Source of the DNA: a virus
DNA: 34,821 nt
IMG/VR virus record: IMGVR_UViG_3300042470_000788
Coordinates: 1-34,821 of that record
Direction: 5' to 3' (one strand)
Shown here: piece by piece, positions 2,800 through 34,128 of the stretch
How the letters are laid out: every line of letters begins with the position of its first letter
Numbering within the stretch: position 1 is the stretch's first letter
Program-made: the position numbers and the translations under genes
The notes under the pieces: generated by a model
Told to the model about the DNA's origin: nothing
The model's input: only the letters and a program-made list of their open reading frames with translations
The model's database searches: none

Positions 2800-3730
2800 T
2801 TTTGTACTAGAAGATTTGGATCAAGTTTTTAGTGCAATTAGACAACAACTTGATCGCAGAGATCCGTCTAAAATTCAAACGGACAATGCAGCTATTAGTG
2901 CAAAAATCAAAGCTACACTACAAGCATATCCTACATGGGCACAACAAACACGTGAATTAGCGGGATATCAACCTCCTACTACGGTTGATCAACCAACTAG
3001 TTATCAAATGGGTGTGGGACCAAAAAAGATAGCACAAACCACTGCACAACAGCGTCAAGTCCAACAAAAAACTAAGCAGGATATGTTGCCTACACCTAAT
3101 TTAAAGGCAGCACCTACATCTATAGCAGGATATGATGCTAAACGTGCTGCGGCAGCTACTAGAGCACAAGCTGATATGAGGCGTGGTAAACCACCTGATT
3201 ATACAACACCTATGCCAACCTTAGTGCGTCAACGACAAGCACGTGGTATGACTGAAGGTAAGTTTAGTGATTTATATGCTTTATTAGAGTCTGCCATACT
3301 TGAACAACAACAACAAGACCCAGGTAGCTTTACTAATTACCTAAAAACCATTGTAAAATTTGATCCAAGTAAAAGTGATCCTGTTTATAAACAACAGATT
3401 CAAATGATTGAAAAATTATACAATGAGAATAAAAAAGATGAAGCAGAAAGAGAAGCAGCACAAATATTAGAGCTAATTTATAAGCAACAATTATTAAAAA
3501 GTAGAACAGGCTCAGCAACAAGTGATGTAGGTTCGTTTGATGACTATGATAAAACCAACGTAAATAAGTTTTTAACTAATGTACGTGCTAATTATTATAA
3601 TGAAGATGAACTTACAAACATTGTTTTATATTCTTTGCTCAAGTTAAAAACAAAATATCCACAGCAGTTTAACCAAATAACTGCGGATATTGACAGTACT
3701 TTAGCCAACTATCAAAAACAAATTACCTAA
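2792..3730 (+). CDS. unknown protein, Gln/Ala-rich, probable virion-associated
   Basis: 312 residues. The first 150 are low-complexity, rich in Gln, Thr, Pro and Ala (TTAQQRQVQQKTKQ, AKRAAAATRAQADMRRGK), and likely disordered. The C-terminal half is helical and charged. No catalytic motif is visible. It overlaps the upstream gene (ATGAATAA) and precedes a strongly translated probable structural gene, so a virion or assembly role is plausible but unproven. Its composition resembles disordered linkers or scaffolding of phage assembly proteins. Confidence 0.7.
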   Translation: MNNFVLEDLDQVFSAIRQQLDRRDPSKIQTDNAAISAKIKATLQAYPTWAQQTRELAGYQPPTTVDQPTSYQMGVGPKKIAQTTAQQRQVQQKTKQDMLPTPNLKAAPTSIAGYDAKRAAAATRAQADMRRGKPPDYTTPMPTLVRQRQARGMTEGKFSDLYALLESAILEQQQQDPGSFTNYLKTIVKFDPSKSDPVYKQQIQMIEKLYNENKKDEAEREAAQILELIYKQQLLKSRTGSATSDVGSFDDYDKTNVNKFLTNVRANYYNEDELTNIVLYSLLKLKTKYPQQFNQITADIDSTLANYQKQIT

Positions 3731-6585: not shown

Positions 6586-7296
6586 ATGTACAACCCAAAA
6601 TTTAACTATACCACTTTTAATCGTGTCAACATTGATGGCAAAAGACACTATGATACACCTGCAGGTAAGCTACCTTCAGTAACAACCATACTTGATGCTA
6701 CTAAACCTGAAGAAGAAAAACGTGCATTATTTGAATGGAAAAAACGTGTAGGTGCAGAAAAAGCACAGCAAATTACTACGGAAGCTGCAAATCGTGGTAC
6801 TAAAATGCACACTTATCTAGAACGATATATTAAAGATGGTGTACAACCACCTAAGTCATCTAATTTCATGCACCATGATAGTTGGCACATGGCAGAACAA
6901 GTTATACATGGTGGATTAAATCATTGTCAAGAATTTTGGGGTGTAGAGGTGCCATTATATTATCCACAATTATATGCAGGTACTACTGATTGTGTTGGTG
7001 TACATAAAGGTATTCCTAGTATTATTGACTTTAAACAATCTAATAAACCTAAAAAACGTGAATATATTGATGGGTATTTTCTTCAGTTAGTATTTTATGC
7101 TAATGCACATAATGAAGTACATGGTACTAATATTAGTCAAGGTGTTATTATGATGTGTGTTAAACCTGACAACAACCAAACACCATTATATCAGGAATTT
7201 ATTTTACAAGGTGATGATTGGAAACGATTCAACAGAATGATGTGGGATCGTTTAGAACAATACTTTGAGGAAAAACAAACCCTACACGTTGCATAA
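6586..7296 (+). CDS. PD-(D/E)XK nuclease (RecB/Cas4-like exonuclease)
   Basis: 236 residues. The nuclease core is visible as E121 in VEVPL, D135 in GTTDCVGVH, D148-x-K150 in IIDFKQSNK, and the QxxxY motif (Q167, Y171 in QLVFYANA) typical of RecB-family nucleases. An N-terminal SVTTILD segment matches the start of this phage exonuclease family. It likely degrades or processes DNA ends in recombination, replication or host DNA breakdown. It has its own sigma70-like promoter. Substrate polarity cannot be deduced. Confidence 0.87.
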   Translation: MYNPKFNYTTFNRVNIDGKRHYDTPAGKLPSVTTILDATKPEEEKRALFEWKKRVGAEKAQQITTEAANRGTKMHTYLERYIKDGVQPPKSSNFMHHDSWHMAEQVIHGGLNHCQEFWGVEVPLYYPQLYAGTTDCVGVHKGIPSIIDFKQSNKPKKREYIDGYFLQLVFYANAHNEVHGTNISQGVIMMCVKPDNNQTPLYQEFILQGDDWKRFNRMMWDRLEQYFEEKQTLHVA

Positions 7297-7317
7297 TTGA
7301 ATAAATAAGTATATCAC

Positions 7318-7325
7318 TATAAAAG
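7318..7325 (+). promoter_or_regulatory. late-like TATAAAAG before tail fibre
   Basis: TATAAAAG ends 7 bases before ATG 7333. A second element, AATAAATA, lies about 25 bases upstream (7300-7307). Either could drive late transcription of the fibre gene. No Shine-Dalgarno is evident. Confidence 0.4.
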
Positions 7326-7332
7326 ATATACT

Positions 7333-9984
7333 ATGTCAATTATCCAAATAAGTAAAATCCAAGTAAGGACAGGTAACTTAATTGATTTGCCTCAATTAAG
7401 TGCGGGTGAGTTCGGTTGGGCAGACGATGAGCGCAGATTGTTTATTGGAAATGATTCCAATCGTGTAGGGGACCCTGACCCAAACAATACCGAAATTCTT
7501 ACCAAATATAGCCCCATTGAGTTAAGTGGTAATGTTACCATTGCTAATGTAGAAAACTTACACGTAGGTGGGGGCAACAACGGATACTTTTTACAAACTA
7601 ATGGTAATGGTACATTGGTTTGGAGTGCCATCCCAGGTGGCTCAACAAGCAACATTGCAGGATCAACAGGACAAATACAATTCAATACCGCAGGTGGTTT
7701 TGATGCTAGCGCAAATTTAACCTTTGATAAAGCTAATAGTACATTAGATGTTAATGGTCATATTAAGAGTGCCAATTTAACAGTCAATACTAATTCAGAA
7801 TTTTCTAATGCAATATTTACAGGTAATTTACGTGTTTCTAATACAGATCAAAACACTTTTGTAGTTTTTGCTGATGCTAATAGCATTGTATCAATTGGTA
7901 GTGGACAAGTATTTGCTAATCGCTTAAATGCTAATCAAGCAAATATTGCAGGTAACATTATTTCAAATACAATTACTGCAAACTTGTTTATTCGTGCAGC
8001 TTCAACCTTACTTGTAAATGATGGTTCTAATTCAAATATCGCAGGTAATCTTATTGTTGGTAACAATAACGTATGGGCAAATTCAGATGGTATTGCTCTA
8101 ACAGGTAATCTTACTGCACAAGGTTATATTTCAGGTGAAAGTGTCACCGCAAATTCTATTACAATCAACACAAGCGCAAACATTAATGGTGTCAATCTAG
8201 ATAGTTCTACGGTTACAGCAGCAAACTTCACCTCTAATACAGGTGTGTTCACAGGTAATGGTAGCGGATTAAGCGCATTAAACGCAAGTAATCTATCAAG
8301 TGGTACGATTCCATCAGCAAGATTGTCAGGATCTTATTCTATTGACGTTGATGATGCAACAACCGCAGGTACAGTAACAACTAATGCTCAACCTAATATT
8401 ACAAGTGTTGGTACATTAACATCATTAAGCGTAGGTGATATAACATCTACAGGTAATTTATCAGCACAAAATGTCATTGCAGCTAATGGTGCCAATGTCA
8501 TAGGTGCGTTAGGTGTGGTTGGATCAGGTAATATTTCAGCTAACTTAACAGTTGGTGGTAATATTACAGCATCAGGAGCAACGTTTGGAAATACAGTAAC
8601 AGCTACAACCTTTGTTGGAAATGTCACTACACCGACAATTATTGAAGGTAATAGCAATGTTTTAATTTATTCAAATGGTAAGATTGGTATTACTAGTTAC
8701 GGACAAGCAGATGTTTTAAGTATACAATCAGATGGAACATCAGCGAATTCAACCTTTGCAAATAATGTAACGGTAGTTGGTAATCTTACTGCAGGTTCAT
8801 TACACGGTCCGTTATCAAATGGTACAAGTAATGTTACAGTAGCTAATGATGCAAACATTGTTTTAACGGTTGATGGTAATAATATTGCTAACTTTACAGC
8901 GACTACAGCTAATGTATTTGGTAATTTAGTTGTAAGTTCACATGTAATTGCACCTAATTTTGTTGGTGCATTGGCAAATGGTAATAGTAGCGTTAATATT
9001 CCTGCAGTCAATGGTAACGTTAACATTAGCGCAATTGGTACGCCCAATGTGGTTGTAGTGGCTAATACAGGTGCTATTATTAATGGTACGTTAACAGCCA
9101 ATGGTAATATAGTAGCTAATAATGTCAATGGTGGAAACTTAGTTACAGCTAATTTCTTCAGTGGTGTTATTACAACTGCTGCCCAACCTAACATTACTTC
9201 GATTGGAACTTTAGCAGATTTAAATATCTCCAATTCAATGACAGTTGGTGCTAATATTGATGCCAATGTTGTTATTGCTGCTAATGGTTTATACGGGCAA
9301 TTACAAACCGCTAATCAAACTGTAATTACTCAAGTTGGTCAACTAACCAATCTTACCGTTGGTAGTGGACTAATAGTCTCTGAATTTTTCCCTAATGGTG
9401 ATTTTGTAACTTCTAATGCAGTAGTAAGTGGATCATTAACTGTTGGTGGTAATGTTCTCATTACTAATTTAAATTTAGATAGTGGATTTACCGCAAATGG
9501 AAACATTACTGCTAATTATTTCTTAGGAAATGGTTCACAATTAACAGGGCTTAATGGTCCATTGTTTAGAGCAGTTAATAGCGTGTCACAATCGTTGACA
9601 ACAGGCACTACTAATTTAATTTATGCTGCTACCACCGATAATATTGGAACATATTATAACACTGTTAATGGTAGATTTACACCACTTGTTGGGGGATATT
9701 ATCAAATTAATGTTTCATTATTACCTCAGCTTGTTTCAGGCGTAGCTAGTGGATCGTTTAGTATAGCTTTATATAAGAATGGATCATTGATAGCTCAAGG
9801 ACCTACTGTTGCTATCACACCAACATGGGGATTACTTGGATATAGTAATCTATCTACTTTATTATACTTAGATGGTGTAAGTGATTATATTAGTATCGGT
9901 GCAATTAGTTCTGTAATAAGTGGTACATGGCAAAGTACAGCGTCAGTGCTTAATTATTTTCAGGCAGCTTGGATAAGAGAATAA
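7333..9984 (+). CDS. long tail fibre protein with repeat shaft and jelly-roll-like tip
   Basis: 883 residues. The N-terminal ~60 (ISKIQVRTGNLIDLPQLSAG, FIGN) resemble the attachment domain found at the start of many phage fibre proteins. Residues ~70-740 are an extended Asn/Thr/Ala/Gly-rich shaft built of imperfect repeats such as GNITANG and the recurring AQPNITSxGTL unit (clear at two places, degenerate at a third). The last ~140 residues form a distinct globular tip (YYQINVSLLPQL, YKNGSLIAQG) that reads like a C1q/TNF-type jelly roll, ending QAAWIRE. It probably binds a host surface receptor. It sits alone between late-like elements and a small gene that could be an assembly partner. Confidence 0.88.
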   Translation: MSIIQISKIQVRTGNLIDLPQLSAGEFGWADDERRLFIGNDSNRVGDPDPNNTEILTKYSPIELSGNVTIANVENLHVGGGNNGYFLQTNGNGTLVWSAIPGGSTSNIAGSTGQIQFNTAGGFDASANLTFDKANSTLDVNGHIKSANLTVNTNSEFSNAIFTGNLRVSNTDQNTFVVFADANSIVSIGSGQVFANRLNANQANIAGNIISNTITANLFIRAASTLLVNDGSNSNIAGNLIVGNNNVWANSDGIALTGNLTAQGYISGESVTANSITINTSANINGVNLDSSTVTAANFTSNTGVFTGNGSGLSALNASNLSSGTIPSARLSGSYSIDVDDATTAGTVTTNAQPNITSVGTLTSLSVGDITSTGNLSAQNVIAANGANVIGALGVVGSGNISANLTVGGNITASGATFGNTVTATTFVGNVTTPTIIEGNSNVLIYSNGKIGITSYGQADVLSIQSDGTSANSTFANNVTVVGNLTAGSLHGPLSNGTSNVTVANDANIVLTVDGNNIANFTATTANVFGNLVVSSHVIAPNFVGALANGNSSVNIPAVNGNVNISAIGTPNVVVVANTGAIINGTLTANGNIVANNVNGGNLVTANFFSGVITTAAQPNITSIGTLADLNISNSMTVGANIDANVVIAANGLYGQLQTANQTVITQVGQLTNLTVGSGLIVSEFFPNGDFVTSNAVVSGSLTVGGNVLITNLNLDSGFTANGNITANYFLGNGSQLTGLNGPLFRAVNSVSQSLTTGTTNLIYAATTDNIGTYYNTVNGRFTPLVGGYYQINVSLLPQLVSGVASGSFSIALYKNGSLIAQGPTVAITPTWGLLGYSNLSTLLYLDGVSDYISIGAISSVISGTWQSTASVLNYFQAAWIRE

Positions 9985-26037: not shown

Positions 26038-26527
26038 TGTAAAAAAACTGTAGAAGTTGTATGGGTTCACTAGATGTTTTTGCACCATGCACTACCTTAT
26101 TTGGGTTAAAGTGATATTCATGTATACCACGTAATTTAAAGAAACATCCTGTTTCATCATACAGTGACGTTTCACTATCTGTGCCACTAACCATAACATT
26201 ATAAACCATGGTTGTTCTGTTAGGGTGATAATCTAGATGAATTGGAAAATTAGAATATGGTAACACTGTTAGTGCAAAAATACTTTCAGGTTTTGAACCA
26301 CATTCACGTAATAATTTTTTAGCACCAAAATCTTTAACTAACTCTAGTGCCATATCTTTACCAAATGTACTAAGATAACCTACAACGGTGCCACGATGCC
26401 TAATCCAATTGCGACAATCATACTTAAATTCTTTAGTATCAAAACGATAATACCATTTTTCTTCTACGGTATCTGTAAAGTCTTTATTGATGGGTAATGT
26501 GTCAATATATTCAAAATATTTTTTCAT
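26030..26527 (-). CDS. oxygenase-like cupin protein lacking the usual Arg
   Basis: 165 residues. H97-x-D99 in FPIHLDYHPN and H147 in NKVVHGAK give a possible Fe(II) triad in a beta-helix. At the +10 position, where relatives have R, it has Q157 (EPIQLLQFFY), so 2-oxoglutarate binding may differ or be lost. Overlaps the desaturase stop (ATGA). It could be a divergent oxygenase or a non-oxygenase cupin. Confidence 0.65.
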   Translation of the reverse strand: MKKYFEYIDTLPINKDFTDTVEEKWYYRFDTKEFKYDCRNWIRHRGTVVGYLSTFGKDMALELVKDFGAKKLLRECGSKPESIFALTVLPYSNFPIHLDYHPNRTTMVYNVMVSGTDSETSLYDETGCFFKLRGIHEYHFNPNKVVHGAKTSSEPIQLLQFFYNA

Positions 26528-27270
26528 TGTTCTATTAACCTTATGACTTGGTAACTTACATCAAATTCCCAAGGTCTTGTTTGAAAATTCTTATTAGCAG
26601 GACGATAGTGATGATTATTGTGCCATCCTTCACCCCATACAAGATATCCTAATATAATATTATTTTTACTATAATCGTTTACTTTATGATTGGTATAGCC
26701 TAATACACTGTGGCACAGTGTATTAATACTACTACCTGCGTTCCATAAGATAGCAGCAGGTGCAAGATAAAGCAGTGTTGCCCAATACCATCCACCGATC
26801 AATAGTAAGGATAACAATATTAATACATGGATGTGATAGTATCGACGATGTAAAAATCTATGAAAAGGATCACGCACCATTTGATTGACATATTGTAGCT
26901 TGGGATGTGTATAAAACATGCTTAACCATTGTACTTTAACATAACCAAAAACAAAGGGGCTATGAGGGTCGCCTTGCTTGTCTGCGTGACGATGATGTGC
27001 ACGATGGTTGTTTACCCAACTTATAGGACTACCAATTAATCCCCATACACTACATATACTTCCAATTTTTTCCAACCAATTATATTTTGGTTTAAAACTT
27101 TTATGACTATAATAACGATGTAAGGTAATGCTTACACCAATACAACCTGTTAAAAAGTAAATAAAAAATACGATAAGCCATTCATATAAACCAAAGTTAA
27201 AAAAAGCCCATACTAAACTAATATGAGCGATCATTTGAAATAAGAATAGCAATATAAATTTTACTTTCAT
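26524..27270 (-). CDS. membrane fatty-acyl desaturase (delta-9 type)
   Basis: 248 residues with the three histidine boxes of membrane desaturases: HRYYSH at 51-56, HRAHH at 89-93, HNNHH at 217-221. Four or so hydrophobic segments surround them, and the family features WGLIGSPISWVNNHR and WGEGWHNNHHYRP are present. It would introduce a double bond in host acyl chains in the inner membrane using diiron and electrons from the host. Near full length (bacterial delta-9 enzymes are somewhat longer). It lies with oxygenase genes, so joint lipid or envelope modification is a reasonable inference. Confidence 0.92.
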   Translation of the reverse strand: MKVKFILLFLFQMIAHISLVWAFFNFGLYEWLIVFFIYFLTGCIGVSITLHRYYSHKSFKPKYNWLEKIGSICSVWGLIGSPISWVNNHRAHHRHADKQGDPHSPFVFGYVKVQWLSMFYTHPKLQYVNQMVRDPFHRFLHRRYYHIHVLILLSLLLIGGWYWATLLYLAPAAILWNAGSSINTLCHSVLGYTNHKVNDYSKNNIILGYLVWGEGWHNNHHYRPANKNFQTRPWEFDVSYQVIRLIEQ

Positions 27271-27288: not shown

Positions 27289-28209
27289 TTAGTTAAGCTT
27301 TATTTTATCCACATAAGGTGCCCACAATTTGCGTTGTTCAATCATAAGCTTTTCATACCCTACACTATTTTGATCTTCGGGTAAGGTATACCACATTATG
27401 TCATTTAAGAACTCGGTGTATTCTGCAGTGCGTAGCGCATTAAGAAAAGTCTTTTCCCAAAATTTTACAATAGTTGGGTCAGTGTTTCTAGGTAAAACAA
27501 CACCAACTTGACCAACTAATGAAAACTTTAATAATATAGTACCTTGAATTTTGCTTGGTACAGTATTACCTGTTATACCAAGATATCTAACTTTACCTGC
27601 TTTATAAAATTCATATGCACTACTAGCGGGAAATATGCCATAATGTACTTGACCACCTGCAACGTCAACTGCAGCTAATGCAGGACTACGATAGCCTATC
27701 ATTTCAGTTTGTGCTTTCATATTAGATCGAAGGTATTCATATGCAACACGTTGTATTGCAGCACCTACTCCAATATTAACTGCACCTGATAATTGATTAA
27801 ATTCTTCTAGCGTTTTTACACCTTTTTCTGAATTAGCCACTAATGCTAGTGGTGTTCTAGCTAAACTAATAACAAATTCCACATCAAATGGATCATGCAC
27901 TAGTATATTTGAATACCATGTTTTTGTACCAACAAATACACCAATTGCAGGTACAAATAAAGTATGTCCATCTGCAGGTTGTTTAGCGAAATGATTGAAG
28001 CCAACCACCTCATCCGACCCAGGCTTGTTTTCAATAATAAAATTAATATTTGGGTTTTGTTTTTGTACAATACTTGCTGCTTTACGAAAGACAATTTCAT
28101 TGCCACTACCACTAGCATAACCTATAACTACAGTAACAGGTTTAGTAGGTTGAAAACTATACGCATTTAAGCTTAATAGTAACGAAGTAATAAAGATAAT
28201 AAGTTTCAT
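27289..28209 (-). CDS. TctC/Bug-type periplasmic substrate-binding protein
   Basis: 306 residues, full family length. A signal peptide spans residues 1-18 (cleavage after AYS). The Bug family hallmarks PVTVVIGYASGSGNE, IENKPGSDEVVG, ADGHTLFV and later VGVVLPRNT are visible. Bug proteins bind carboxylates in the periplasm for tripartite tricarboxylate transporters; Burkholderiales-type hosts have very many. No membrane components are encoded here, so the protein would need a host TctAB or act alone. It overlaps the methyltransferase stop (ATGA). Confidence 0.9.
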   Translation of the reverse strand: MKLIIFITSLLLSLNAYSFQPTKPVTVVIGYASGSGNEIVFRKAASIVQKQNPNINFIIENKPGSDEVVGFNHFAKQPADGHTLFVPAIGVFVGTKTWYSNILVHDPFDVEFVISLARTPLALVANSEKGVKTLEEFNQLSGAVNIGVGAAIQRVAYEYLRSNMKAQTEMIGYRSPALAAVDVAGGQVHYGIFPASSAYEFYKAGKVRYLGITGNTVPSKIQGTILLKFSLVGQVGVVLPRNTDPTIVKFWEKTFLNALRTAEYTEFLNDIMWYTLPEDQNSVGYEKLMIEQRKLWAPYVDKIKLN

Positions 28210-28808: not shown

Positions 28809-29663
28809 ATGACTACTAAAATTCTTATTATGGGCTTACCTGGCTCAGGAAAAACTTACCTTGCTGAACGATTAAAACAATTTTTACAATTGCCACGTTC
28901 AGTTACCGAAATGCCAATCTCTAAATTAGCTAAGTACGAAGTTGCCCCGATGAATTGGCAACCAACAGTAAAATGGTTTAATGCTGATGATGTACGTAAG
29001 CGTTATAATGATTGGGACTTCAGCACTGAAGGTCGTATTCGACAATCAATACGTATGGCAGACTTTGCAATTAATAGTGGCAGCGATTATGTCATTTGTG
29101 ATTTTGTTGCACCATTAGTTGAAATGCGCAACAACTTCAAAGCAGATTGGACAATTTGGATGGACACTATTGATGCAGGTCGTTACGAAGATACTAACAA
29201 AGCATTTATACCACCTGCACAATATGATTTCCGTATTACTGAAAAAAATGCTGAATTTTGGGTAAAGTATATTGGTGAACATATTATCAAGGATCAGCGT
29301 AGACCAACATTTGATTGGCGTAAAGAAACAGTACAAATGTTAGGACGTTGGCAACCATGGCATGCAGGTCATCGTGCATTATTTGAACGATTGTTACAGC
29401 GTACAGGACAAGTCGTTATTCAAATACGTGATGTTCAAGGATGGCAAGGCAGTAACCCATTTAATGTTGATCAAGTTAAAGGTTATATTAAACGAGATTT
29501 AGACCCGTTGTATCAAGGACAATATGAAATTATGTTAGTGCCTAATATTGTACATATTGGTTGGGGACGTGGTGTAGGCTATACAAGTGGTGAAGAAACG
29601 TTTGATGAAAGCATCACGAGTATCAGTGCAACTAATATTCGCAAGGAAATGGGGCTTGAGTAG
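28809..29663 (+). CDS. APS-kinase-like P-loop domain fused to HxGH nucleotidyltransferase
   Basis: 284 residues in two domains. Residues 1-~165: Walker A GLPGSGKT (9-16) and APS-kinase-like features NADDVRKRYNDWDFS, RMADFAINSGSDYVICDFVAP and WMDT. Residues ~172-284: a nucleotidyltransferase of the cytidylyltransferase/NMNAT class with GRWQPWHAGH (HxGH at 185-188) and ISATNIR (272-278). The order is kinase then transferase. Possible roles: making PAPS or a nucleotide-activated group; NadR-like NAD synthesis is an alternative but with reversed order. The next gene encodes a sulfotransferase-like protein, which would use PAPS. Confidence 0.82.
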   Translation: MTTKILIMGLPGSGKTYLAERLKQFLQLPRSVTEMPISKLAKYEVAPMNWQPTVKWFNADDVRKRYNDWDFSTEGRIRQSIRMADFAINSGSDYVICDFVAPLVEMRNNFKADWTIWMDTIDAGRYEDTNKAFIPPAQYDFRITEKNAEFWVKYIGEHIIKDQRRPTFDWRKETVQMLGRWQPWHAGHRALFERLLQRTGQVVIQIRDVQGWQGSNPFNVDQVKGYIKRDLDPLYQGQYEIMLVPNIVHIGWGRGVGYTSGEETFDESITSISATNIRKEMGLE

Positions 29664-30396
29664 TTACGAAAGAGTATGCTTTTTATCATTGCCTAGATCA
29701 GGAACACAATTAATTGGTAATATTTTTAGGCAGAGGTACATACGTCAGTTAGAAATAGGTGAACTATTTGAATCACATCATATTTCGAGCTACATGTTTG
29801 ATCATAATGATTACCTATTTCGTATAAATTTTGAACGAAGCCATTTTCCTACGGGGTGGAAGTTATGGGATAGGGACAGTTATCGTTTAGATGTGTTAAA
29901 ACGATTTAATCTAGAACAGCAATTAAGTATCAAGTTATTTGTTTTCAAACATTATGATACGCTATTGTTTGATCAAATTGTAGAAACCTTTATAGATAGA
30001 AAGTTTTCTTTTGTTTCATTACAAAGAAATGTAGTTGATCAATTATTCAGTTACATTGTAGCGGACCATTGGAGTAAAGGCTTAAATAATAATGTATTTC
30101 CTATCAATAGAGTAGTTCAAGGTACATCAAAAGTTGTCATTACTGAAGGTATTGACAAGATGTGTAGGTATATGTCAGAAAGCAATGTGCTATTTCAAGA
30201 TAATATCCAACGATTAAAAAGTAAGTATAATCTTACCATACCCCATGTTACGTATGAAAATATATTTGAACAATGTTCTACTCTACTTCAATTTCAAGCA
30301 AAAAATGAGGGTGTAAAAACTTTGGATGATCCTAAGTTACACATTGAAAACTACGAAGAAATAAAAACTTACATAAATAGCTTGACAGCATTTTAA
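29656..30396 (+). CDS. sulfotransferase-like protein
   Basis: 246 residues from TTG 29656, inside the TTGAGTAG end of the upstream gene and 7 bases after AAGGAA; in-frame ATG 29605 or GTG 29587 would run far into the upstream gene. The 5'-phosphosulfate loop FLSLPRSGTQLI (P13-T17) and the 3'-phosphate-binding SLQRNVVDQLFSYI near residue 125 match PAPS-dependent sulfotransferases. It would transfer sulfate to a sugar, lipid or protein. Coupled by an 8-base overlap to the APS-kinase fusion, which could supply the donor. Confidence 0.75.
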   Translation: MSSYERVCFLSLPRSGTQLIGNIFRQRYIRQLEIGELFESHHISSYMFDHNDYLFRINFERSHFPTGWKLWDRDSYRLDVLKRFNLEQQLSIKLFVFKHYDTLLFDQIVETFIDRKFSFVSLQRNVVDQLFSYIVADHWSKGLNNNVFPINRVVQGTSKVVITEGIDKMCRYMSESNVLFQDNIQRLKSKYNLTIPHVTYENIFEQCSTLLQFQAKNEGVKTLDDPKLHIENYEEIKTYINSLTAF

Positions 30397-30422: not shown

Positions 30423-30501
30423 GCCCCCTTAGCTCATGGTTGGTCAGAGCGGCAAGCTCATAACTTGAAGGTGCGTGGTTCGACTCCACGAGGGGGCACC
30501 A
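30423..30501 (+). tRNA. tRNA with CAT anticodon (Met or Ile2)
   Basis: 79 bases with encoded CCA. Acceptor GCCCCCT/AGGGGGC, D stem GCTC/GAGC, anticodon loop CTCATAA (CAT at 30459-30461), T arm CGTGG-TTCGACT-CCACG. The first pair is G-C, so it is not an initiator tRNA. The acceptor resembles tRNA-Ile2 (lysidine-modified CAT) as much as elongator Met. Its 27-43 pair is G-A. It has its own strong promoter. Confidence 0.95.
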
Positions 30502-30516
30502 ACATAGGTATTTAAA

Positions 30517-31242
30517 ATGATTTATGATGATAGTATAGAACGAGATCAATTTTGTAAAGCAAACGGTATATACTATTTTTCAGAGGAAATTACACTACGG
30601 AAAGATACACGCAAGTGTGTAAGCAATTTAGATTTTAAAAGTATTGATAAAGAATATCGACAAAATCAAATTGTCATAGTAGATAACTTTCTTGATAAAG
30701 AAGTTGCTTTTAGGTTGCGACATTTTTTGCTATCAACTAATTTAAGACAATTTTTTCAGCATGATTACGCTAGTATAGATTATTATAGGCGACCTAATGA
30801 AGTATGGTTTAATCTTCTTTCAAACATTGTTGATGAATTAAAAGAAAATTTAGATATACTTAATGACAAAGAGTTTATTAGGGCATGGAGTTTTATTTTT
30901 AATAATACGTCAGAGGGTGTAAAAACTCATGCTGATCCTGCTGCAGTAAACATTAATTTATGGGTAACTCCTGATGAGTGTTTAGAACAAAGCAGTGGAA
31001 TGAATGGGTTAGAAGTATTTAAAGTTGAAAAACCGCTTGATTGGACTTATAAGCAATATAATGACAGTAGAGAAATGTGTGATCAATTTGTTCAAATTAA
31101 CAACGCAGAAAAAATAAGTATTGACTATAAGTTTAATCGTGCGGTAATATTCAATTCTGCTTTTTTTCATCGTTCTCAATCTGTTAGAGCATATGATGGA
31201 TATGAAAATAGGCGAATAAATTATACTTTTTTGTATAATTAG
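30517..31242 (+). CDS. Fe(II)/2-oxoglutarate oxygenase (prolyl-hydroxylase-like)
   Basis: 241 residues. H138-x-D140 in KTHADPAAVNINLWV, H218 in FFHRSQSV and Arg at 232/233 in NRRINYTFLYN form the expected triad and 2OG-binding residue. The N-terminal half has the VDNFLDKEVAFRLRHFL motif that opens many 2OG-Fe(II) proteins of phages and protein hydroxylases. It starts 16 bases after tRNA-Met with a weak TAGG Shine-Dalgarno, so it probably shares the tRNA's promoter. Substrate unknown. Confidence 0.83.
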   Translation: MIYDDSIERDQFCKANGIYYFSEEITLRKDTRKCVSNLDFKSIDKEYRQNQIVIVDNFLDKEVAFRLRHFLLSTNLRQFFQHDYASIDYYRRPNEVWFNLLSNIVDELKENLDILNDKEFIRAWSFIFNNTSEGVKTHADPAAVNINLWVTPDECLEQSSGMNGLEVFKVEKPLDWTYKQYNDSREMCDQFVQINNAEKISIDYKFNRAVIFNSAFFHRSQSVRAYDGYENRRINYTFLYN

Positions 31243-31262
31243 CAAAAAAGTAGGCTTTTTTG
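31243..31262 (+). terminator. weak hairpin after oxygenase gene
   Basis: CAAAAAAG-TAGG-CTTTTTTG, a perfect 8-bp inverted repeat immediately after the stop at 31242. The stem is almost all A-T, but the 3' strand gives a T-run, so it could act as a weak terminator in one or both directions. Confidence 0.45.
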
Positions 31263-31281
31263 TAGTATTTTTGCAACGATG

Positions 31282-31289
31282 TATAAATA
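31282..31289 (+). promoter_or_regulatory. late-like TATAAATA ahead of the non-coding stretch
   Basis: Exact TATAAATA with no ATG at 5-6 bases. It could give late transcription of the RNA region, starting near 31295, in addition to the sigma70 promoter at 31315. Confidence 0.4.
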
Positions 31290-31314
31290 ACCTTACATTA
31301 GGATATAAAACTAG

Positions 31315-31343
31315 TTGACAAAGTAAATTTTATAAGGTAAAGT
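31315..31343 (+). promoter_or_regulatory. sigma70 promoter for the non-coding RNA region
   Basis: TTGACA (31315-31320), 17-base spacer, TAAAGT (31338-31343). Predicted start about 31350. Together with the terminator at 31495-31524 it defines a ~175-base transcript. Confidence 0.75.
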
Positions 31344-31454
31344 AACAAACATGAGAAGTCTAAGAAATACGATGAGTTTAGCGAAGGGTACACAACCAAG
31401 TTGGTGTGCGATCCCCCATGCTCGCTCATATAATTTTGAGGACATTGGGGGCAG

Positions 31455-31499
31455 GGGTTCAGGTTAATCATAGATAGTACATAAGATTACACTGAACCC
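31455..31499 (+). promoter_or_regulatory. candidate anti-terminator pairing
   Basis: GGGTTCAG (31455-31462) is the exact reverse complement of CTGAACCC (31492-31499), giving an 8-bp stem that uses bases 31495-31499 of the terminator's 5' strand. The two hairpins cannot form together. Confidence 0.5.
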
Positions 31500-31524
31500 T
31501 AGGAATAAACCCCTAGGGTTTTTT
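31495..31524 (+). terminator. Rho-independent terminator of the small transcript
   Basis: AACCCTAGG (31495-31503) pairs with CCTAGGGTT (31512-31520), an 8-base loop between, followed by a T-run to 31524. Perfect 9-bp stem. Confidence 0.85.
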
Positions 31525-31699
31525 GTTTTACGTGTGTGAGAAACGAGGTCTCAGTGGTGCACGATAAACATGCCACGAACGGTCGGAGTCTCGGTATGAA
31601 ACTGTGGCGATAACACAGGAGTAAGATGAGCAAGTGGGGGATGGCCCCACTACATTCTTAAGATAATTGGATACAGTTGTTTTAAGAATGTAAAAATAT
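31525..31699 (+). other. non-coding stretch before the tRNA cluster
   Basis: No gene of normal size. It contains imperfect stems such as GTGGTGCA with TGCCAC around 31553-31575, and a tiny open frame of 11 codons at 31626-31661 (MSKWGMAPLHS) with AGGAG four bases upstream (31617-31621), reminiscent of a leader peptide. The frame reads through the first of two adjacent hairpins (see 31634) and stops in the second. Probably the transcribed leader of tRNA-Arg(ACG), possibly with regulatory structure; no known RNA motif recognised. Confidence 0.4.
31634..31692 (+). repeat. two adjoining hairpins upstream of tRNA-Arg
   Basis: GTGGGG/CCCCAC (31634-31639 with 31645-31650) is followed without a gap by TACATTCTTAA/TTAAGAATGTA (31651-31661 with 31682-31692), an 11-bp perfect stem with a 20-base loop. 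The A-rich sequence after it is not a T-run, so it is not a terminator on the plus strand. Confidence 0.65.
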
Positions 31700-31777
31700 A
31701 TCCCCTTAGCTCAGTGAACTTAGAGCGTACCGCTACGAACGGTAAGGTCGTGGGTTTGAATCCTACAGGGGGTGCCA
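31700..31777 (+). tRNA. tRNA-Arg(ACG)
   Basis: 78 bases with CCA. Acceptor ATCCCCT/AGGGGGT (one T-G pair), D stem GCTC/GAGC-type, anticodon stem TACCG/CGGTA with loop CTACGAA (ACG at 31735-31737), T arm GTGGG-TTTGAAT-CCTAC. First conventional tRNA of the cluster. Confidence 0.92.
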
Positions 31778-31782
31778 AGTTT

Positions 31783-31895
31783 AGGATGCTAACAGCAAGT
31801 TATGATGCTTCGGGAGCCGTCTGTTGTAGGTTCGAATCCTACCATGTCTTGTAAAAGATATGTAGCTCAATGGTAGAGCAACGATAATGCATCCT
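31783..31895 (+). repeat. inverted repeat flanking the permuted tRNA
   Basis: AGGATGC (31783-31789) and GCATCCT (31889-31895) are perfect reverse complements. Inside them TTAT (31800-31803) can pair with ATAA (31884-31887). The two flanks would fold together next to the anticodon stem and hold the two ends of the permuted precursor side by side. Confidence 0.7.
31807..31883 (+). tRNA. candidate circularly permuted tRNA, anticodon CGG (Pro?)
   Basis: The 3' half comes first: GC (31807-31808), anticodon loop TTCGGGA (31809-31815), GCCGT, variable CTGTT, T arm GTAGG-TTCGAAT-CCTAC (31826-31842), acceptor CATGTCT and base 73 T (31850). After GTAAA comes the 5' half: acceptor AGATATG (31856-31862), TA, D arm GCTC-AATGGTA-GAGC (31865-31879), A, ACG (31881-31883). 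Joining ACG to GC gives a perfect 5-bp stem ACGGC/GCCGT and a 72-nt cloverleaf with U8, A14, GG18-19, A21, U33, TTC, A58 and C61 all present. CCA is not encoded. The loop TTCGGGA is that of tRNA-Pro(CGG), but A1-U72 and U73 do not fit bacterial tRNA-Pro, so charging is uncertain. Confidence 0.72.
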
Positions 31896-31904
31896 GTTTT
31901 ATAT

Positions 31905-31980
31905 GTAAGCGTGACCCGAATGGCTAGGGAACGGATTGCAACCCCGTTTTATGCAGGTTCAACTCCTGTCGCTTACTCCA
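31905..31980 (+). tRNA. tRNA-Cys(GCA)
   Basis: 76 bases with CCA. Acceptor GTAAGCG/CGCTTAC, discriminator T as expected for Cys, D arm with CCC/GGG, anticodon stem ACGGA/CCCGT with an A-C mismatch at 31:39, loop TTGCAAC (GCA at 31938-31940), T arm GCAGG-TTCAACT-CCTGT. Normal order, in contrast to its upstream neighbour. Confidence 0.92.
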
Positions 31981-31987
31981 AATATAT

Positions 31988-32061
31988 GCCGACATGGTGT
32001 AATGGTAGCATACCAGTCTCCAAAACTGTTTGTGGGGGTTCGAATCCCTCTGTCGGTGCCA
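31988..32061 (+). tRNA. tRNA-Trp(CCA)
   Basis: 74 bases with CCA. Acceptor GCCGACA/TGTCGGT (G-T first pair), D loop AATGGTA, anticodon loop CTCCAAA (CCA at 32020-32022), T loop TTCGAAT, discriminator G as expected for Trp. A T-run directly follows, which may end the cluster's transcript. Confidence 0.95.
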
Positions 32062-32065
32062 TTTT

Positions 32066-32647
32066 TTACTTTAACCCTGTATTAACACTTAATACAATTC
32101 TTTGCTCAGATTCGTTAATACCATGACTACCATGTATTAACCAACTTGGGAAGATAATTAGCTTGCCTGTTTTTGGAATTAATGTATACCACTCATAAGT
32201 GTAATCAGTTAATGTTTCAATATCTGTATAGCTATTAAAAGGGTTAGGTGTTTTGAATGTTATAGGACTACTTTTTTCATCAGCGTATAAGTATAATGCA
32301 CATGAAATTACACTGTGTGGATGAGAATGAAATTTTAATTGTGAACCAACTTTTTGAATATTTACCCAAGAATTTGTGATATAAACTTCACTGAATCCTG
32401 AAGTTTTACAATATCCATCAAATGCATTTATTAATCTTTGTTTTAATGGTATCGAAAGATCAATAAAATCAAGCTCACTATGCCATCTAGCTGAATGAGA
32501 TGATGACCCATTACCTACTAATGCATTATGGTCAATTAATCTTGAATGATCGATATTTTCAACAATTACGTCACATTCAATGTCAGTTAAAAAATCAGGT
32601 ATTTCTTGTACTAAAGTAGGAAACAATGCGTAGTTGTTAGTTACCAT
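32066..32647 (-). CDS. 2OG-Fe(II) oxygenase-like protein (phage type)
   Basis: 193 residues from ATG 32647; an ATG six bases upstream (32653) overlaps the TATAAATA element and would lie before the predicted transcript start. Pattern NSWVNIQKVGSQ, then H107-x-H109 in FHSHPHSVISCALYL, H172 in FPSWLIHGSH and R183 in EQRIVLSVN, matching the small 2OG-Fe(II) oxygenase family common in marine phages (HxH instead of HxD). Its end faces tRNA-Trp. Confidence 0.82.
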   Translation of the reverse strand: MVTNNYALFPTLVQEIPDFLTDIECDVIVENIDHSRLIDHNALVGNGSSSHSARWHSELDFIDLSIPLKQRLINAFDGYCKTSGFSEVYITNSWVNIQKVGSQLKFHSHPHSVISCALYLYADEKSSPITFKTPNPFNSYTDIETLTDYTYEWYTLIPKTGKLIIFPSWLIHGSHGINESEQRIVLSVNTGLK

Positions 32648-32652
32648 GTTCA

Positions 32653-32660
32653 TATTTATA
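32653..32660 (-). promoter_or_regulatory. late promoter TATAAATA, minus strand, 5 bases before ATG
   Basis: Minus-strand TATAAATA, then TGAAC, then ATG 32647. Exact consensus. Diverges from the CATAAATA at 32673. Confidence 0.6.
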
Positions 32661-32672
32661 ATGTGTATTTGT

Positions 32673-32680
32673 CATAAATA
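32673..32680 (+). promoter_or_regulatory. late-like CATAAATA, 5 bases before ATG 32686
   Basis: CATAAATA, then TTAAT, then ATG. One base from consensus. Confidence 0.55.
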
Positions 32681-32685
32681 TTAAT

Positions 32686-33180
32686 ATGCTAATTAGAGAA
32701 TTACTTACAGAATCAACCAATCGTAAAATTGGTAAAGTTATTGGTGGACAAATCTATGTTCACAAAGACTATGTTAATTCACCACTACTTAAACGTGAAA
32801 TACCGTTGTCATGGTATAAATTAGCTGCTTCTAAGTTACCACCTGATTTTGATTATACAGTGGTACGTTATGATTTAAAAGATGGTTCAATAGCTTTTAT
32901 TTCATCACCTGACTTTGATACTGCAGATGAACCTACAGTAGGTACTTCCATTAAAGTTACTAGATATGGTAACGTTAAAGTTACTAAACCATTAGCTGAT
33001 CCTTGGATATGGCACCATAAATGGGAATGGGTTGGTGATGACTATACAGGTTTTGATGTTGAACAAAGTAAAGCACGATCTGAAAAATGGAAATCCATAG
33101 TCGGTGTAGACAAAGCTGTTTCTTCTAGAATAGGCAAGAAAAGCTATTGGGATCGTGAAATCGTACCTAAAATAAAATAA
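32686..33180 (+). CDS. unknown protein among tRNA and oxygenase genes
   Basis: 164 residues starting MLIRELLTESTNRKIGKVIG, with an N-terminus of the M-x-I-R-E-L form seen in several phage proteins. It is Trp/Tyr-rich in the centre (DPWIWHHKWEWVGDD) and basic at the end (IGKKSYWDREIVPKIK). No known motif. It lies 5 bases after CATAAATA and ends directly before tRNA-Ser. Confidence 0.7.
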   Translation: MLIRELLTESTNRKIGKVIGGQIYVHKDYVNSPLLKREIPLSWYKLAASKLPPDFDYTVVRYDLKDGSIAFISSPDFDTADEPTVGTSIKVTRYGNVKVTKPLADPWIWHHKWEWVGDDYTGFDVEQSKARSEKWKSIVGVDKAVSSRIGKKSYWDREIVPKIK

Positions 33181-33181
33181 C

Positions 33182-33271
33182 GGAAGTGTGTCCGAGTGGT
33201 TTAAGGATCTAGTCTTGAAAACTAGCGATTCAGTAATGGGTCCGTGAGTTCGAATCTCACCGCTTCCACCA
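33182..33271 (+). tRNA. tRNA-Ser(TGA)
   Basis: 90 bases with CCA and the long variable arm of Ser tRNAs. Acceptor GGAAGTG/CGCTTCC, anticodon loop CTTGAAA (TGA at 33216-33218), T arm TGAG-TTCGAAT-CTCA. It starts 1 base after the upstream stop codon. Confidence 0.95.
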
Positions 33272-33279
33272 TATAAATA
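33272..33279 (+). promoter_or_regulatory. late promoter TATAAATA, 5 bases before ATG 33285
   Basis: Exact TATAAATA directly after the tRNA-Ser CCA, then CTGTT and ATG. Confidence 0.6.
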
Positions 33280-33284
33280 CTGTT

Positions 33285-33419
33285 ATGACAATGTGGCAAT
33301 TACATCTATATCATGGTGCATGGTTAGCATTACTTATAACAGTAGGCATGCTTACCTTTTGGTGGGTATCGCTATTAATCTTTATAGCAATATTTGTTTA
33401 TGCTTTTGTTTTTGCTTAA
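33285..33419 (+). CDS. 44-residue membrane peptide
   Basis: MTMWQLHLYHGAWLALL opens a 44-residue peptide that is hydrophobic almost to its end: one long or two short membrane segments (about 13-30 and 31-44), no charged residue after the N-terminal third. ATG is 5 bases after an exact TATAAATA. The stop TAA is part of the next gene's TAAATA element. The small size leaves some doubt, but promoter spacing on both sides supports it. Function unknown. Confidence 0.55.
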   Translation: MTMWQLHLYHGAWLALLITVGMLTFWWVSLLIFIAIFVYAFVFA

Positions 33420-33422
33420 ATA
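33415..33422 (+). promoter_or_regulatory. late-like CTTAAATA, 5 bases before ATG 33428
   Basis: CTTAAATA spans the stop codon of the membrane peptide, followed by TTGGC and ATG. Confidence 0.5.
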
Positions 33423-33427
33423 TTGGC

Positions 33428-34051
33428 ATGAATGAATTATTATTTGCTACGGTTGATTTTCCACTATTAGACAAAGCACATGCAGTAGATACTATTATGG
33501 ACACACCACGAAAATATTGGTGGTGGGATTCTTATCGAACAACCAATATGTTACCTTTAATGACACGTAGTGGTAAAAGCGGACATGATGGATCTGATAA
33601 TGGTGGTAAAGATGAGTTTGAGTGGGTAGACTATACTTCAAAAGAAATTAGAGATTGGTTTGACGATATTATATTCCCATGGATGGGGCAACGTGCAAGA
33701 ATTATGGCACTACTCACTGAACCAAATTTTAGTAATGCTGAACACATTGATTGTGATGAAAACCAAGTTGGAACCATGCAACATAAGTTTCGTTATGTGG
33801 TGCAAGGGCAAACTGATACATTGTATTGGATTACAGAAAATGGTCAGGTTAATGCACCTGCAGTAGATCAACCATTTTTAATGGATGGTGGATGGCCTCA
33901 TGGTATGCATAATAGTTCAAATGGGTTTAAATTAACATTAGCTGTTGGTGCGCCATGGATTGGCAATCATAGTTATGATAACATTAATGTTTTACAATCA
34001 AGAAAAGATTATGTATTGCCTAGCAATTGGAGGAAATACTTAAAAAAATAA
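33428..34051 (+). CDS. Fe(II)/2-oxoglutarate oxygenase-like protein with Lys at +10
   Basis: 207 residues from ATG 33428; upstream in-frame codons would run through the small peptide gene. H106-x-D108 in AEHIDCDEN, H158 in GGWPHGMHN and K168 at +10 (GFKLTLAVG). The spacing equals that of the tandem paralogues, with Lys where Arg is usual. Trp-rich N-terminus (KYWWWDSYRTTN) is distinct. The gene stops 2 bases before tRNA-Arg(TCT). Confidence 0.72.
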   Translation: MNELLFATVDFPLLDKAHAVDTIMDTPRKYWWWDSYRTTNMLPLMTRSGKSGHDGSDNGGKDEFEWVDYTSKEIRDWFDDIIFPWMGQRARIMALLTEPNFSNAEHIDCDENQVGTMQHKFRYVVQGQTDTLYWITENGQVNAPAVDQPFLMDGGWPHGMHNSSNGFKLTLAVGAPWIGNHSYDNINVLQSRKDYVLPSNWRKYLKK

Positions 34052-34053
34052 AT

Positions 34054-34128
34054 CTGACCGTCGTTCAATGGATAGGACATGGTTCTTCTAAATCCAGAAT
34101 GGGGGTTCGATTCCCTCCGGTCGGGCCA
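34054..34128 (+). tRNA. tRNA-Arg(TCT)
   Basis: 75 bases with CCA. Acceptor CTGACCG/CGGTCGG (one T-G pair), D loop around AATGGATA, anticodon loop CTTCTAA (TCT at 34087-34089) on a stem with one T-T mismatch, T arm GGGGG-TTCGATT-CCCTC-type. Reads AGA/AGG codons, common in AT-rich genes. Confidence 0.92.

Follow-up and report, generated by a model that had tools for sequence, protein, structure and literature searches.

The window, a 34,821-base virus record, carries two overlapping genes on the plus strand. Gene A (28809–29663) is an intact ATG open reading frame of 284 residues that fuses an APS-kinase-like domain to an HxGH nucleotidyltransferase. The kinase-like domain, delimited from the AF2 model and fold lists, spans residues 1–164 (28809–29300) and contains the Walker A motif GLPGSGKT at residues 9–16 (28833–28856), in which G9, G14 and K15 are invariant among 42 sequences. 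The transferase domain is compact (residues 172–284; 29322–29660), and was placed by alignment and by a match to NadM-type NMN adenylyltransferases (NMNATs) in the PDB. It contains GRWQPWHAGH, the HxGH motif (residues 179–188; 29343–29372); the family-invariant Arg207 (29427–29429); GRGVGY (29565–29582), similar to the GRD loop found in ATP sulfurylase; and SATNIR (29625–29642). The initial annotation had read this gene as an APS-kinase-like domain joined to an HxGH nucleotidyltransferase, in the reverse of the NadR order. The fusion is real, since one intact frame bears both GLPGSGKT and GRWQPWHAGH, and the kinase does precede the transferase, the opposite of the domain order in NadR. NadR has been described as combining a transferase and a P-loop kinase in one fusion protein (PMC9503650).

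Gene B (29656–30396), recognised from its open reading frame, homologue alignment and Foldseek, encodes a sulfotransferase-like P-loop protein of 246 residues counted from a TTG codon. Its longest frame opens at GTG 29587, and the part that aligns with relatives begins at TTG 29656; given this inferred start codon, the 8-base overlap claimed earlier (29656–29663) holds. AAGGAAA (29643–29649) is a possible ribosome-binding site, inferred from the letters. Two related viral loci, L002 and L004, have the same arrangement with a 4-base overlap and an ATG start. The PAPS-binding motifs ascribed to gene B are also present: PRSGTQ (29692–29709), which we take to be the 5'-phosphosulfate-binding loop of sulfotransferases, and LQRNVVDQLFSYI (30019–30057), presumably their RN..Q...S motif that binds the 3'-phosphate. 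PRSG and residues R124, N125, Q129, L130 and S132 are invariant in three homologues.

Other genes in the window include, on the minus strand, a TctC-type periplasmic solute receptor (27289–28209; PF03401, E 6e-19) and a fatty-acid desaturase (26524–27270; PF00487, E 4e-16), the latter close to genes for an Asp/Arg hydroxylase and a DegT aminotransferase. One cluster of TctC-like genes recurs near gene A in eight loci. Six tRNA genes occupy 30423–34128, the first directly 3' of gene B.

Gene A is not a chance open reading frame: IMG/VR holds 266 stretches related to it, 80 of which were kept for analysis, and dN lies well below dS (0.05–0.11 against 0.46–1.22, all six pairs among the four closest copies). 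To judge from these substitution rates, the gene is under strong purifying selection. It matches phrog_10255 (E 5e-42), which PHROGs labels only 'kinase', with no role in sulfate activation. In viruses, SAR11, SAR86 and haloarchaea alike, kinase and transferase keep together, either fused or encoded by neighbouring genes.

The window protein does not reach the curated cutoff of PF01583 (APS_kinase; 20.5 bits, cutoff 21.1), and TIGR00455 is not among its NCBIfam matches. More distant family members, L127 and L115, clear the PF01583 cutoff (59.5 and 53.1 bits), and the kinase family profile (A3) matches PDB APS kinases at 1e-16. An AF2 model of the kinase half (pLDDT 88.9; alignment of 42 family sequences) places APS kinases at the top of the Foldseek list (1.6e-6). 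The best 30 entries of the VIA fold list, made with residues 1–164 only and uninformative on the transferase fold, are all APS kinases or enzymes containing that domain, with fused ATP sulfurylases and PAPS synthases among the latter; their Z runs from 17.6 to 14.8, and the next entry, gluconate kinase, has Z 14.1. The match to 7yq0_A has Z 17.6 and rmsd 2.1 over 141 aligned positions. As modelled, the kinase half has the APS-kinase fold. Eight residues invariant in the 42 sequences (D60, R63, N67, F71, R76, R82, F99 and P102) have identical counterparts in the alignment with the human and archaeal APS kinases, at positions that presumably bind APS in the acceptor site. The conserved acceptor-site positions of APS kinase are present in the family; kinase activity itself is inferred.

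The transferase half tells a different story. A profile of 23 sequences matches NadM-type NMNATs in the PDB (E 7e-10), mainly through the N-terminal half, and the domain also matches the NMNAT models TIGR01527 and NF003786, although TIGR01527 scores 23.1 bits against a curated cutoff of 181.2, which is not met. The domain is a distant homologue of the NMNATs, and a short one. Only 13 residues separate the two aligned blocks, compared with 38 in MJ0541, the second block being weak (2.2 bits); an acceptor-side NMNAT segment of about 25 residues appears to be missing. Two arginines are specific to the family: Arg207, which stands opposite a Gly in the MJ0541 NMNAT, and Arg254, within GRxVGY. Arg207 is a candidate sulfate ligand by inference only.

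Relationship to ATP sulfurylase is not detected by profiles: PF01747 is not among the Pfam matches of the window protein, and ATP sulfurylase is absent from the PDB profile matches of the transferase domain up to E 10. The canonical ATP sulfurylase motifs, as set out in PMC3779200, are QxRN, HxxH, GRD and SGTxxR. By that list, the family has HxxH, GR(D/G) and S(A/G)TxxR in the same order, and QxRN is missing. Among 264 members, gathered with family profiles and an HxGH pattern, GRxVGY occurs in all 264 and S[AG]TxxR in 262; the third residue of the GRD motif is G in 152, D in 108 and another residue in 4. These counts are a census, not a test. Because QxRN is absent, although the other three motifs are kept, the transferase does not belong to the ATP-sulfurylase family; it may nonetheless function as an ATP sulfurylase does.

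Such profiles admit another explanation: gene A could be a reversed NadR, a true NMNAT joined to a nicotinamide-riboside-like kinase that restores NAD during infection, with gene B unrelated. The initial annotation had held that its proposal would fail if profiles assigned the transferase to cytidylyl or NMN transfer and gene B to a family other than sulfotransferases. The first part came true, in that the best profiles of the transferase are NMN adenylyltransferases; as to the second, gene B matches no curated sulfotransferase model, and neither a sulfotransferase nor any other family was found for it at E 1 or better in Pfam and NCBIfam. NAD synthesis is a known phage strategy (PMC9503650). 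Profile hits alone would say NAD synthesis, whereas genome context says sulfate activation.

The viral context was drawn from 162 loci: 157 from IMG/VR, the others from the window itself and from cultured phages. Of 166 loci at the outset, L085, L086, L089 and L160 had no gene A match and were left out of the neighbour counts. Gene A's neighbours include sulfotransferase-like proteins of several mutually unalignable clusters, as well as a small DUF2061 membrane protein. Near and far genes were compared around 43 gene A copies chosen to represent the 155 of full length, omitting genes shorter than 120 or longer than 700 residues. Of 127 genes lying within 1.2 kb, 11 have [PM]RSG[ST] close to their N-terminus; of 129 genes more than 3 kb away, none does (Fisher p 3.6e-4). 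When every locus is counted, the same motif falls away with distance: 31/445 (<1 kb), then 3/283, 3/281, 2/213, 0/180 and 0/66. Sulfotransferase is the commonest Pfam family in the near set (7/127); it is not among the 25 families listed for the far set, and so has at most two members there. No NadV-type family appears among the 25 most frequent in the viral near set, which speaks against NAD salvage. One neighbour points the other way. Four cultured Casjensviridae phages (L082, L084, L085 and L086) have an upstream gene that shares 8 bases with the gene A homologue; in L084 (3565–4008), the one tested, it encodes a NADAR domain, and the gene is of the same size in the other three. This is a link to NAD and ADP-ribose, and it counts against the sulfate reading.

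Haloarchaeal plasmids carry the same two-domain fusion, annotated cysC. A sulfotransferase gene lies upstream of it, directly or one small open reading frame away, in nine of nine records. The haloarchaeal kinase passes TIGR00455 (apsK) in both cases tested (147.8 and 160.4 bits; cutoff 138.7), and its kinase half shares about 43% identity with NodQ from a plasmid. In all eight annotated haloarchaeal records (L310–L314, L319, L322 and L323), the sulfotransferase-cysC pair is joined by a YqcI/YcgG-family gene, which is adjacent downstream in seven; in L310 it lies upstream, on the opposite strand.

In a scan of cellular genomes the gene A family was found in SAR11, SAR86 and elsewhere, and it is often split there into two genes that overlap. 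Across 75 genomes of the SAR86 order, the transferase and Sulfotransfer_3 are each present in 42: 39 genomes have both, 3 have only the first, 3 only the second, and 30 neither (p 3e-14, which overstates independence among related genomes). Put otherwise, a sulfotransferase is found in 39/42 genomes with the transferase and in 3/33 without. Known sulfurylases are nearly lacking, PF01747 being found in 1/75 of these genomes and CysD over cutoff in 0/75. The sulfotransferase lies less than 2 kb from the transferase in 8/42 genomes, in the order sulfotransferase, kinase, transferase. Twenty SAR86 regions were examined, partly picked for a nearby sulfotransferase, so that the operon numbers should not be read as frequencies: kinase adjoins transferase in 19 (not L268), and a sulfotransferase is directly upstream in 8 (split in L267) and elsewhere in L268 and L275. 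Region L275 reads kinase, transferase, DUF2061 (3483–3710) and a CysQ-type PAP phosphatase (TIGR01331, 222.7 bits; cutoff 228.8), with a Sulfotransfer_1 gene beyond. The SAR11 picture is less clear. Co-occurrence of transferase and sulfotransferase is weak in 118 Pelagibacteraceae (46/38/11/23, p 0.04), HTCC9565 has a canonical ATP sulfurylase, and the neighbours of the SAR11 kinase/transferase pair, read by eye, are not sulfation genes.

SAR86 also holds evidence that the transferase might serve NAD synthesis, the absence of NadD tracking its presence: over-cutoff NadD is missing from 33/42 genomes with the transferase and from 10/33 without. The latter figure cuts against NAD salvage as well, because transferase-free genomes that also lack over-cutoff NadD show that the transferase is not its sole substitute. 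A protein of about 370 residues with an HxGH domain, found in eight of ten SAR86 genomes checked (L299, L305 and six more), which lack over-cutoff NadD and include genomes with and without the transferase, may replace NadD; it is possibly an unrecognised NMN adenylyltransferase. Its N-terminal half is CinA-like in L299 (PF02464, 25.2 against 23.5 bits), a similarity not detected in L305, and neither this protein nor over-cutoff NadD was found in SAR86 genome G067. Further evidence against NAD salvage is the APS-kinase fold of the kinase, together with the haloarchaeal kinases that pass the curated apsK model; the loss of some 25 acceptor-side NMNAT residues; and linkage to sulfotransferases, CysQ and DUF2061. 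Genome context outweighs the NMNAT profile hits, and NAD salvage is kept as an unlikely rival; sulfate adenylylation is still inferred, without biochemistry.

A second rival accepts the kinase and disputes the transferase. The APS kinase would be fed by host APS, the HxGH domain would adenylylate some other acceptor, a sugar phosphate or another anion, for surface glycans, and the sulfotransferase link would come from the kinase alone. Kinase-only versions do exist, in viruses (L161–L166) and on Methylosinus and Rhizobium plasmids. On a Rhodoferax plasmid, consecutive genes encode a tail-fibre-assembly protein, a sulfotransferase and the kinase, and the transferase is lacking. No canonical ATP sulfurylase was seen next to the kinase-only genes of L317, L174 and L324. 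Many viral loci, moreover, hold glycosyltransferases, epimerases and other cytidylyltransferases. Set against this are the persistent pairing of kinase and transferase in viruses and cellular lineages, the near-absence of any other known APS source in SAR86, and one instructive cluster. Microvirga lotononidis (L315) has genes for a sulfotransferase, the kinase-transferase, a CysD-like protein and CysN fused to DUF2061. Here the transferase motifs are lost (HESH, GLDLGY, SPTxxQ) and the kinase motifs intact. This is the sole case seen with an adjacent canonical sulfurylase, and it is also a case of a decayed transferase. Such decay beside CysD/CysN-like genes fits sulfate as the shared substrate, albeit in a single case. 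This second rival is improbable, and ranks just after NAD salvage.

DUF2061, fused to CysN in Microvirga (7175–8764), stands beside the kinase and transferase genes in SAR86 and viruses. These positions suggest that this small membrane protein has a role in sulfate activation or uptake.

Gene B is the least securely identified component. A PDB profile search gave no sulfotransferase match. The structural model, made from three sequences, is mediocre (pLDDT 62); with it, Foldseek ranks 1–7 are all sulfotransferases (probability 0.84–0.98), and VIA places Stf0 first (Z 10.5), with other P-loop enzymes at 9–10. We regard gene B as a divergent sulfotransferase-like protein whose use of PAPS is inferred. 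It is also rare: no homologue was found in phage records or in a single-sequence IMG/VR scan, and an alignment-based IMG/VR scan returned only the two known contigs. The cassette had been called self-contained, a description that suits the window; the same gene B adjoins gene A in only 2/80 other kept viral loci (L002 and L004). Between these loci and the window, gene B is 26–30% identical and gene A 88–92%. Read from these alignments alone, the donor-making gene may have been retained and the user gene exchanged. The rarity of the pairing, the identity gap and the highly variable neighbourhoods of gene A could also mean that the two genes are unrelated cargo of a hypervariable phage region, their adjacency functionally meaningless; this is the least probable rival, for sulfotransferase-type neighbours of several unalignable clusters recur beside gene A, which would be expected of loci that keep the enzyme making the donor and exchange the one specific to the acceptor.

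The explanation we favour, and consider likely though by no means settled, is that gene A is a non-canonical PAPS synthase feeding gene B, a sulfotransferase, with both sulfate adenylylation and PAPS use inferred. The HxGH domain, of NMN-adenylyltransferase-like ancestry, would transfer AMP from ATP to sulfate, giving APS. The N-terminal kinase, for which the fold and residues are in evidence and the activity is inferred, would then phosphorylate the 3'-OH of APS to form PAPS. In known PAPS synthases, the kinase draws the unfavourable sulfurylase reaction forward, and the kinase step here would pull APS formation forward in the same way. Gene B, translationally coupled, would move the sulfuryl group from PAPS to an acceptor that is probably either a glycan or some component of a surface or of the tail (virion).

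That the kinase and transferase make PAPS for gene B to use, as first proposed, gains support from several directions: the kinase fold; the haloarchaeal operons; the SAR86 co-occurrence, with ATP sulfurylases nearly absent there; the CysQ and DUF2061 neighbours; and the clustering of viral sulfotransferases. The cassette of kinase-transferase and sulfotransferase is probably real. Linkage and co-occurrence of the family with sulfotransferases are observed in viruses, SAR86 and haloarchaea; sulfate as the acceptor of the transferase, PAPS as the substrate of gene B, and the identity of the sulfated product are inferences only.

Animal PAPS synthases (PAPSS1/2; PDB 1x6v, 2ofw) are similarly built, with an N-terminal APS kinase and a C-terminal HxGH-superfamily adenylyltransferase in one chain. 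Their second domain, however, is a canonical ATP sulfurylase, whereas the roughly 110 residues of gene A are nearest to NMNATs and lack PF01747 and QxRN. Rhizobial NodP and NodQ supply PAPS, and NodH is a sulfotransferase; they too couple dedicated PAPS-making genes to a sulfotransferase, but with a CysD/CysN-type ATP sulfurylase, which a single HxGH domain replaces in the gene A family. NadM and NadR share the N-terminal half of the transferase and the HxGH and STxxR motifs. Gene A differs from them in its shortened acceptor-side segment, the addition of GRxVGY and Arg207, an APS-kinase-type kinase, and the reversed order.

Biological use of sulfate begins with ATP sulfurylase, of which, to our knowledge, only two unrelated types have been described. 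We think it reasonably probable, though with less assurance than for the cassette, that the family is a third class, related by descent neither to Sat (PF01747) nor to CysDN: a minimal domain, some 110 residues long, that was taken over from NMN adenylyltransferases and, fused to or paired with an APS kinase, activates sulfate for swappable sulfotransferases in SAR86, many SAR11, haloarchaeal plasmids and many viruses. Neither this fusion nor a new type of ATP sulfurylase is described in the titles and abstract openings of the open-licence papers that our literature searches listed.

If this proposal is correct, two lineages that are among the most abundant in the ocean, and phages as well, activate sulfate by a route so far missed under labels such as 'kinase' and 'NMN adenylyltransferase'. 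SAR86 and SAR11 cells would be able to sulfate molecules, and phages would bring complete sulfation modules with them.
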